NCBI RefSeq assembly: GCF_001466665.1
Contig: NZ_KQ758903.1
Coordinates: 1,361,684 to 1,425,683 of the forward strand
Direction: 5' to 3'
Source: Dehalogenimonas alkenigignens
GTDB taxonomy: Bacteria; Chloroflexota; Dehalococcoidia; Dehalococcoidales; Dehalococcoidaceae
Length of the DNA stretch: 64,000 nucleotides
Translations under genes and position numbers: made by a program
Shown: positions 36,110 to 47,912 of the stretch, piece after piece
Numbering within the stretch: position 1 is the stretch's first letter
Layout of the letters: each line of letters begins with the position of its first letter
Notes under the pieces: generated by a model
Database searches by the model: none
Seen by the model: only the letters and a program-made list of their open reading frames with translations
What the model was told of the DNA's origin: nothing

Positions 36110-36185
36110 GGGCTCGTAGCTCAGTGGTTAGAGCGGGCGGCTCATAACCGCTTGGTCGCAGGTTCGAAACCTGCCGAGCCCACCA
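36110..36185 (+). tRNA. tRNA-Ile2 (anticodon CAT, predicted lysidine-modified)
   Basis: Acceptor GGGCTCG/CGAGCCC, discriminator A and encoded CCA; the anticodon loop CTCATAA has CAT. The body TAGCTCAGTGGTTAGAGC and the stretch CGCTTGGTCGC resemble bacterial minor tRNA-Ile (ileX type) more than elongator tRNA-Met, so it should read AUA after TilS modification. The identity between Ile2 and Met is inferred by resemblance. Confidence 0.85.
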
Positions 36186-36200
36186 AATCAAACCTTTCAC

Positions 36201-36240
36201 AGAACGAGGAAGAGGATTTTCTTCCCCGTTCTTATTTTTT
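36201..36240 (+). terminator. Hairpin with T-tract between tRNA-Ile and hflX
   Basis: GAACGAGGAAGA pairs imperfectly with TCTTCCCCGTTC around a short loop and is followed by TTATTTTTT. The hflX ribosome binding site GGAGG starts at the very next base, so hflX needs readthrough of this hairpin or an unseen promoter; it may be an attenuator. Confidence 0.7.
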
Positions 36241-36251
36241 GGAGGAACTGG

Positions 36252-37436
36252 ATCATCGTTAAAAAACTGTTTGAGACGGTTGAAAAACCCGAAAAAACGA
36301 TACTTGTAGCCGTAGATACGGGGTCGCAAGCGATACAGTCGGGATGGACGGTCCAGGACTCACTCAACGAACTTGAGCAGTTATTAACAACAGCTGGTGG
36401 AGTATCAGTTGGCCGCCTCATTCAAAAACTGAGCCAGCCGAATAAATCGACTTATTTGGGTAAGGGGAAATTAGAAGAGTTATTATCTTTACAAAATACA
36501 CTTCAATATTCAATGGCGATCTTCGATGATGAACTCACGCCTGCTCAACAGAGAACACTTGAGGATTTCCTTAAAGTTAAGGTGATAGATCGTGCTGCTC
36601 TTATTCTGGATATTTTTGCTCGGCACGCCAAAACGATGGAAGGCAAACTTCAGGTGGAATTGGCGCAATACCAGTATCTGTTACCGCGCCTGGCGGGACA
36701 GTGGAGTCACCTTGAAAGACTTGGCGGCGGCATTGGTACCAGAGGACCTGGCGAGTCCCAACTCGAATCTGACAAACGGCTGTTACAACAAAGAATATCT
36801 AAGCTTAAAGATAATATCGATCGCGTGAGTCGGCAACGTAATCTGTATCGAAATACGAGACGCGCCCGCGGCATTCCAGTTATCGCCATCGTAGGATATA
36901 CAAACAGCGGGAAAAGCAGTTTGTTAAACGCGCTTACCAAGTCAAATGTTCAAGCAGAAAATAAACTATTCGCGACTTTAGACCCCACTACCAGGCGGAT
37001 AGGTCTGCCTGACAACCGTCAATTCTTACTAACCGATACAGTTGGTTTCATTAAAAAACTACCTCCAACAATCATAAAGGCGTTCCGGGCAACCCTTGAG
37101 GAAATCGTTGATTCAACCCTTCTAATACATGTCATCGATATCAATTCACCTAACGCCGTCGAGCAGTGTCAAACGGTGGAACAAATTCTAAATGACTTAG
37201 GCTTAGGAGAGAAACCCCGGATCACAGTATTTAACAAGATAGACCTTTTACCTGAGTTGAAGGGGAGAGTGAATGAACCTAACAGACTTTCCATGCTTGA
37301 CGACTTTCTGCAATTTCAACCTTCAAATACTGTCCTGACATCGGCAACTCGCAGATGGGGTCTAAAGAATCTACTAGAAACAATAGGCAGGTATCTGCCA
37401 GAACCATATCGATCAGAAGAAGGAAGCGTATCTTAA
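36252..37436 (+). CDS. hflX: GTPase HflX, apparently starting on ATC
   Basis: A ribosome-associated GTPase that splits stalled 70S ribosomes. The G-domain has VAIVGYTNSGKSSLLNAL, the DPTTRRI switch, LTDTVGFI and NKIDLL, and the N-terminal HflX domain includes RTLEDFLKVKVIDRAALILDIFA and GGGIGTRGPGESQLE. No ATG, GTG or TTG occurs in frame until the TTG at 36456, yet homologous sequence (ILVAVDTG, SLNELEQLLTTAGG, YLGKGKLEEL) is encoded from about 36297. GGAGG at 36241-36245 lies six or nine bases before two ATC codons (36252, 36255). Initiation on ATC gives about 394 residues, the normal length. Starting at 36456 would cut off half of the N-terminal domain. Confidence 0.85.
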   Translation: MIVKKLFETVEKPEKTILVAVDTGSQAIQSGWTVQDSLNELEQLLTTAGGVSVGRLIQKLSQPNKSTYLGKGKLEELLSLQNTLQYSMAIFDDELTPAQQRTLEDFLKVKVIDRAALILDIFARHAKTMEGKLQVELAQYQYLLPRLAGQWSHLERLGGGIGTRGPGESQLESDKRLLQQRISKLKDNIDRVSRQRNLYRNTRRARGIPVIAIVGYTNSGKSSLLNALTKSNVQAENKLFATLDPTTRRIGLPDNRQFLLTDTVGFIKKLPPTIIKAFRATLEEIVDSTLLIHVIDINSPNAVEQCQTVEQILNDLGLGEKPRITVFNKIDLLPELKGRVNEPNRLSMLDDFLQFQPSNTVLTSATRRWGLKNLLETIGRYLPEPYRSEEGSVS

Positions 37437-37492: not shown

Positions 37493-37545
37493 ACGATCCG
37501 CTATCATGGTAATTTGACATAATATTACTTGTTTCGTCAAACATT

Positions 37546-38750: not shown

Positions 38751-39599
38751 CTATTTTAACCAGCTGCCGTTGAATACGGTTTCGGCCCGACCCGATAAGT
38801 AAACCTCCCCTTGCCCGCACCAGTCCGCAGTTAACTGGCCACCTGGAAGTTTTATGTCAACTCTATTTCCGGTGCGTCCCAAAATCCAACCGGCTACGGC
38901 GACGGCACAGGCTCCAGTACCGCATGCGAGGGTCTCCCCTACTCCGCGCTCCCACACTCTCATCTCGACGGTTCCGTGATTAATAACTCTGACGACTTCA
39001 AGATTTGTTCTTTTAGGAAACATTGAGTTGCGCTCAATCATCGGGCCGATGATATTTAAAGGGAAATCGGCGACTGCATCGTCTATGAAACACACCGCAT
39101 GTGGATTTCCCATGGATACGAAATTGAGATTTAGTTGTTTCCCGTTTGCCTCAACGGGATAATTGGATATCATGCCGCAAATGCGGTCTCCAAGATCGGA
39201 ATCGATTTCTACGGGAATTTCATCCGGTTCGAGAATGGGTACGCCCATACCAATTTTGATATTGGGAGAGCCGTTTATCAGGGTCACCTGTGCTATCCGA
39301 ATACCCCCATAAGTCTCGATGGAGAGCATTTCACCAGGCGCCATTCCGGTGGTTATAAGATGATGCACCAGGCAGCGAAGGCCGTTGCCACACGCTTCGG
39401 CTTCGGATCCATCTGCATTGAAGATCCTCATACGGAAATCAGCTTTTAAAGATGGCAACAGAACCAGTAATCCATCTGAACCCACGCCATAATGACGGTC
39501 ACATATTGCCAGGGCAAGGCTTTTCCAATCGAAAGCGTCCTCTCGAGACTCAACGAGGACGAAGTCATTGCCGACACTCTGTACTTTAGTAAAATCCAT
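38751..39599 (-). CDS. dapF: Diaminopimelate epimerase
   Basis: A 282-residue cofactor-free racemase that makes meso-diaminopimelate from the LL form. The two catalytic cysteines are in EACGNGLRCLV and LACGTGACAVAVA. It has the opening KVQSVGNDFVLVE and the MGNPHAVCF segment. I start at the ATG at 39599 (AAGGTG at good spacing); a GTG three codons upstream is possible. It overlaps the end of miaA by 14 bases. Confidence 0.95.
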   Translation of the reverse strand: MDFTKVQSVGNDFVLVESREDAFDWKSLALAICDRHYGVGSDGLLVLLPSLKADFRMRIFNADGSEAEACGNGLRCLVHHLITTGMAPGEMLSIETYGGIRIAQVTLINGSPNIKIGMGVPILEPDEIPVEIDSDLGDRICGMISNYPVEANGKQLNLNFVSMGNPHAVCFIDDAVADFPLNIIGPMIERNSMFPKRTNLEVVRVINHGTVEMRVWERGVGETLACGTGACAVAVAGWILGRTGNRVDIKLPGGQLTADWCGQGEVYLSGRAETVFNGSWLK

Positions 39600-47125: not shown

Positions 47126-47329
47126 TTACGCGGATCCGTAGGGTATCAAACGCCCCAAGCGTTGAACATCTACCTTGGCAACCGGAATCATTTCGTCGAA
47201 TTGACGTCGAGCTCTCTTTGACTTGTTGCGGCGCAGATGACTTTTTAAACCCTTCATCCGCATCATTTTCCCAGTGCCAGTGATCTTAAACCGGTTTTGT
47301 GCGCCTTTATGCGTTTTTAGTTTCGGCAT
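47126..47329 (-). CDS. rpmI: 50S ribosomal protein L35
   Basis: A 67-residue very basic ribosomal protein: MPKLKTHKGAQNRFKITGTG, then GLKSHLRRNKSKRARRQF and a C-terminal RLGRLIPYG. It overlaps the end of infC by 23 bases, which implies coupling. Confidence 0.97.
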   Translation of the reverse strand: MPKLKTHKGAQNRFKITGTGKMMRMKGLKSHLRRNKSKRARRQFDEMIPVAKVDVQRLGRLIPYGSA

Positions 47330-47873
47330 CTTCTAATGAACCTTCTTTATTTTTGTTACCTTTATTGGTAGTTTTTGGTAGCAACATCAGGTGGATTCGC
47401 GATCCCAGGAGTGTCGGTTGTCCTTCAACCGTTGAAATGTCGGTTAAATCTTCAGCAGCACGTTTCAGGATTTTAATACCCAGTTCCGAGTGTGTGATTT
47501 CACGCCCCCGGAACATAATGGTTAGTTTTACTTTATCGCCGTCTTCGAGTTGTTTCCTAACACTTCGAACTTTTGCTTCGTAATCATGCTCTCCAATTTT
47601 GGGCCGTAGCCTGACTTCTTTCAATAGTGAAAGCTTCTGACCCTTTTTGGCTTCCCGTTCTTTTTTTGTCTGTTCGTAACGGTACTTGCCATAATCCATC
47701 AACCGGCAAACTGGAGGTATCGATGTAGGTGCAACTTCCACGAGATCGACATTCGCCCGGCGCGCCATATCTTTTGCCTGGGCGACTGTCATCACCCCGA
47801 GTTGTTCTCCATTCTCCCCGACCACCCTGACTTCTCTTCCAAGTATCTTTTCGTTGATTCGAAGTTCCTTAAT
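47307..47873 (-). CDS. infC: Translation initiation factor IF-3, starting on ATT or ATA
   Basis: A 188-residue factor that checks the start codon and keeps the subunits apart. Family marks are ELRINEKILGREVRVVGENGEQLG, ARRANVDLVEVAPTSIPPVCRLMDYGKYRYEQ, EVRLRPKIGEHDYEAK and KVKLTIMFRGREITH. In-frame ATG or TTG codons upstream fall in the predicted promoter or its first transcribed bases. GGGAGG at 47892-47887 precedes ATA (47876) by 10 and ATT (47873) by 13 bases, and homology begins right there. An AUU start is the classical autoregulated start of infC. The acidic C-terminal tail EGSLEDAETKNA overlaps rpmI. Confidence 0.93.
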   Translation of the reverse strand: MKELRINEKILGREVRVVGENGEQLGVMTVAQAKDMARRANVDLVEVAPTSIPPVCRLMDYGKYRYEQTKKEREAKKGQKLSLLKEVRLRPKIGEHDYEAKVRSVRKQLEDGDKVKLTIMFRGREITHSELGIKILKRAAEDLTDISTVEGQPTLLGSRIHLMLLPKTTNKGNKNKEGSLEDAETKNA

Positions 47874-47912
47874 TATATGCCGGCTACCTCCCGTAAGAAT
47901 AAAGCAAAGGTA

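Follow-up and report, generated by a model that had tools for sequence, protein, structure and literature searches.

The hflX gene in the window analysed here (a stretch of 64,000 nucleotides from a complete chromosome of 1.85 Mb) raises the question of where translation begins in a reading frame that offers no conventional start codon. The frame is open for 40 codons 5' of position 36252, back to an in-frame stop, and from that stop until the TTG at 36456 it contains no ATG, GTG or TTG. The initial annotation had reported this gap and had singled out GGAGG at 36241-36245 as the only good ribosome-binding site, followed six and nine bases later by two in-frame ATC codons (36252 and 36255); both statements agree with the sequence, which continues from GGAGG as AACTGG ATC ATC GTT AAA AAA. 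TTG 36456 lies 67-68 codons into HflX and inside its N-terminal domain, PF13167 (residues 36-123, numbered from 36252), so whole HflX could not be made from it. PF13167, PF16360 and PF01926 all score above cut-off in one protein, which identifies it as an HflX GTPase. In the sister species (87% identical), CTC ATC stands where the window has ATC ATC, and the CTC at the first position makes 36255 a likelier start than 36252. The features of the region are collected in Table 1.

The CAT-anticodon tRNA directly in front of hflX has a G1-C72 pair and a CTCATAA loop, which suggest a tRNA-Ile2 that reads AUA and not an initiator. In the sister species the tRNA in front of hflX (L003, 1359-1434) likewise has a CAT anticodon and is tRNA-Ile2-like. 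Because the tRNA terminator comes directly before the hflX Shine-Dalgarno sequence, the tRNA promoter may also serve hflX.

Table 1. Sequence features of the hflX region and of infC in the window
Feature	Position	Strand	Basis or remark
tRNA, anticodon CAT	36110..36185	+	ARAGORN; directly upstream of the hflX region
Terminator-like hairpin and T run, between tRNA and hflX	36201..36240	+	RNA fold, sequence
hflX Shine-Dalgarno GGAGG	36241..36245	+	Sequence; sister species L003 has GGAGGAGG
First ATC, possible but less likely start	36252..36254	+	CTC in sister species
Second ATC, most likely start codon	36255..36257	+	Column is AUH or ATG in relatives
hflX coding sequence (predicted)	36255..37436	+	Pfam PF13167, PF16360, PF01926; relatives
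HflX N-terminal domain PF13167; a start at TTG 36456 would cut it	36357..36620	+	Pfam
TTG, first canonical start codon in frame; not the start	36456..36458	+	Inside the N-terminal domain
infC (IF3), start ATA 47876-47874 or ATT 47873-47871, after GGGAGGT	47307..47876	-	

Related hflX loci were collected from the window's order (106), the rest of the class (53) and the rest of the phylum (53), and their starts were judged against a fixed protein anchor, the ILVAV motif, from which columns were counted. Of the 159 loci from the order and class, 94 have no canonical start in the interval that separates a true in-frame stop from the anchor, and 91 of these 94 carry an AUH codon (AUU 29, AUC 38, AUA 24), which is located at column -15 in 66 loci and within two codons in 83; 79 of the 91 have a Shine-Dalgarno match 4 nt or longer. 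Read without any choice of codon, column -15 holds AUH in 96, ATG in 8 and GTG in 1 of 158 loci; AUH occurs at 0-17% in most columns nearby, the exceptions being -16, where tandem AUH codons fall, and -10. The ATG found in this column of eight other loci marks it as the start column. The in-frame stop often precedes AUH by only 0-5 codons, as in TAA CGG TTA ATA AAA (L008) and TAG AGG GAT ATC ATA (L027), too short a distance for a start further upstream. AUC as the hflX start, which the initial annotation had proposed, is corroborated by this comparison of start-codon positions in related genomes, where AUH recurs near the same column. An AUH codon is kept at the predicted start across the order and much of the class, a recurrence far beyond chance. 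The gene in the window has no usable in-frame ATG, GTG or TTG before the conserved protein, and its AUH follows a well-spaced Shine-Dalgarno sequence and is conserved among relatives; we call genes with these features AUH-start genes. That its predicted start is an AUC, most likely at 36255 and possibly at 36252, is strongly supported. Two loci of the neighbouring genus (L010, L012) have an in-frame ATG at -20, which was rejected as a start: it overlaps the Shine-Dalgarno sequence, it is CTG in L014, and ATT/ATC is retained.

The state of the hflX start is inherited but can change. A quick tree of 127 labelled loci, built by a fast method, gave at least 14 state changes as against 18 or more in 50 shuffles. 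Plausible canonical starts are present in ten loci of the order and 18 other class loci, and therefore the AUH start can be lost. Outside the class, starts are mixed, and most of the loci there are canonical or unclear; in one family (f56), six loci (L056, L057, L060, L063, L064, L066) have a Shine-Dalgarno sequence followed by ATT, ATA or ATC at column -22 and no well-placed canonical start. Two loci, L136 and L137, have ACG AAG after GGGAGG where close relatives have ATA or ATC AAG, and ACG may be the start there. Two genomes (G133, G144) have two hflX copies each, on separate contigs, which may be paralogues or contamination. A scan of genome contigs gave only two distant loci.

Further genes with unusual starts were sought by coding-potential scans of 464 kb of the window's genome and 400 kb of the sister genome, which brought up purM, rplU and hisA as genes without canonical starts. 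The starts of these three, of infC and of pgk and dxs were then compared across 30 relatives per gene. For rplU the start is ATT in 30/30 (L379-L408), mostly as GGAGG or GGAGGTG followed by ATT TAC GC, and hisA carries AUH in 28/30 (ATA 17, ATC 11, ATG 2; L409-L438). About 25/30 purM loci (L349-L378) have ATC or ATT; every one of the eight genomes of the genus has ATC, and elsewhere the start is mostly ATT or ATC one codon later, with TAG directly before it in L357 and L373. ATG, GTG, TTG or CTG stands at or beside the purM start in L361, L364, L367, L377 and L378, so AUH has been lost in places. The non-AUG start that had been ascribed to the window's infC is confirmed: a canonical start is absent, GGGAGGT on the minus strand is followed by ATA ATT AAG GAA, and at least 27/30 relatives have ATA at one column. 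In pgk and dxs a canonical start is available in every case (60/60 loci). The rule that AUH should have the better Shine-Dalgarno sequence is crude and noisy in these controls (5/30 pgk, 11/30 dxs), and what our conclusions depend on is therefore that no canonical codon is present. Homology scans of the available sequence gave no further clear AUH-start gene. A codon-usage scan, of such low sensitivity that it missed hflX and infC and run alongside the homology scans, gave no clear excess of AUH after Shine-Dalgarno sequences over other codons (16/270). The predicted AUH starts are tied to particular genes, at least four besides hflX (infC, rplU, hisA and purM). The initial annotation had treated the AUC of hflX as a peculiarity of one gene beside infC, which does not stand: hflX joins infC as a further AUH-start gene, one whose start is conserved through the order and in a large part of the class, and from these comparisons the finding extends beyond one gene. 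No report of AUH starts in hflX, rplU, hisA or purM was found in the open-licence literature searched.

How such a codon might be read is indicated by the initiation apparatus. The genome contains 45 tRNA matches with a single initiator-type tRNA, recognised by a 1-72 mismatch, a GGG/CCC anticodon stem and the anticodon CAU; among the 45 there is no initiator-like tRNA for AUU, AUC or AUA. A special initiator tRNA for isoleucine codons is ruled out by the ordinary CAU anticodon of the sole initiator, and the IF3 of the genome looks ordinary as well. With this one initiator, fMet-tRNA must read AUH with a third-base mismatch. IF3 in vitro requires Watson-Crick pairs at bases 1 and 2 and tolerates weaker base-3 pairs in part, and AUU/CAU initiation is lowered by IF3 (PMC10158994). 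The AUU start of infC provides autocontrol of IF3, and the Streptomyces sigR GTC start is repressed by IF3 (PMC5472188). HflX is a known ribosome-splitting factor (PMC4770234). We propose that GGAGG, just after the tRNA terminator, would set initiation at AUC 36255 or possibly 36252; that the ordinary CAU initiator fMet-tRNA would read this AUC despite the third-base mismatch, so that HflX would begin with Met; and that initiation would be inefficient. The initiation site is well supported by the comparison, and we infer its weakness from general knowledge. The weak start would be held by selection, with relatives exchanging AUU, AUC and AUA for one another and more rarely turning to AUG. Third-base-mismatched complexes are removed by IF3, so HflX synthesis would probably vary inversely with free IF3, as that of IF3 itself does. 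The step taken in the initial annotation, from an AUC start to dependence on IF3, follows by analogy with infC and sigR and is reasonable; HflX output is likely to be controlled by IF3, and we think that little HflX is made and that its amount increases as free IF3 declines. We hold it probable overall that hflX is translated from a weak, selected AUC through a mismatched fMet-tRNA, with HflX probably inverse to free IF3.

Readings that place the start elsewhere would invoke the near-cognate CTG at 36267 or a short protein begun at TTG 36456, or else a frameshift or an error in the sequence. The CTG is in frame, and in a few relatives (L136 and L137 among them) the site is occupied by ACG or some other codon, but there is no Shine-Dalgarno sequence at usable spacing for CTG 36267, the short stop-to-AUH distances leave little space for a frameshift, and a TTG start would remove part of the N-terminal domain. 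The agreement of about 90 related hflX loci rules out a sequencing error or a single-lineage accident, and we give this group of readings next to no credence. It is hardly more probable that the weak start works through coupling with ribosomes finishing the preceding gene. hflX lies within a few tens of bases 3' of dapL in most of the class, but in the window and its nearest relatives it stands behind a tRNA and a terminator with AUC still present, and dapL coupling is ruled out as a general reason.

Two further readings accept the AUH start and differ over its meaning. A lineage-wide relaxation of initiation fidelity, through altered IF3, tRNA or ribosome, would let AUH drift in and out of many genes, and the use of AUH by at least five genes, compared with two known in E. 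coli (PMC1780047), is in its favour; we nevertheless consider it improbable, because AUH stays with the same genes throughout the order, canonical starts are retained in every pgk and dxs locus, the homology scans added no clear case, and the initiator tRNA and IF3 are ordinary-looking. That the hflX start is real but amounts to a weak constitutive dosage setting without IF3 regulation is unlikely, though it deserves more weight: rplU, hisA and purM share the AUH start, yet no reason why all three should need IF3 control is obvious. Against a purely constitutive setting, starts at AUU, AUC and AUA are generally subject to IF3 (PMC10158994, PMC5472188), and the infC gene of this genome begins in the same way.

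Known systems resemble hflX in part. E. coli infC (Butler et al. 1987, cited in PMC5472188) likewise combines a conserved AUH with a good Shine-Dalgarno sequence and a product that acts on ribosomal subunit joining; unlike infC, hflX does not encode IF3, so its putative control by IF3 would be exerted in trans. Streptomyces sigR, too, encodes something other than IF3 and combines a conserved noncanonical start with a strong Shine-Dalgarno sequence and a history of misannotation in genomes, but its codon is GTC/GTT and not AUH, it concerns one gene in one genus, and its repression by IF3 has been shown experimentally (PMC5472188). The AUU of E. coli pcnB keeps expression low (Binns and Masters 2002, cited in PMC1780047) and is an AUH start as in hflX; it belongs to another gene, and deep conservation is shown for hflX and not in that source. 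A known ribosomal GTPase gene requires an AUU start for its full length, as hflX would require AUH; it was described in single genomes, and conservation was not shown there.

What sets the present case apart is that, throughout an entire order, the genes concerned have retained AUH at one and the same codon. Because of this conservation, standard gene callers are likely to truncate or overlook hflX, rplU, hisA and purM in these genomes. The sharing of an AUH start by a few genes suggests a common way of setting their output. rplU, hisA and purM would follow the same IF3 rule as hflX, and the output of all four is predicted to rise as IF3 falls. If control by IF3 is true, HflX and IF3, two factors that keep ribosomal subunits apart, would be under one control. 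A broader and more tentative proposal, which we think possible but would not presume, is a deeply conserved regulon defined by start codon that comprises infC, hflX, rplU, hisA, purM and probably more, co-ordinated by IF3 through one rule; ribosome splitting, a ribosomal protein and purine and histidine synthesis would then share a rule missed by standard annotation.

A 9-mer, TTGACATAA or TTTACATAA, is present slightly upstream of the hflX Shine-Dalgarno sequence in 67/106 order and 11/53 class loci, where about 0.2 would be expected. No copy precedes purM, rplU, hisA, infC, pgk or dxs, and the 9-mer has no Rfam match and shows no clear enrichment elsewhere. The element lies mostly right after the dapL stop (loci L002-L178, e.g., L149, L154, L024), in up to four copies upstream of hflX that may be tandem (L149). 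The window's hflX has no upstream copy, and the 9-mer is thus not needed for an AUH start. The copies in the window are located at 37514-37522 (+) and 38852-38860 (-).
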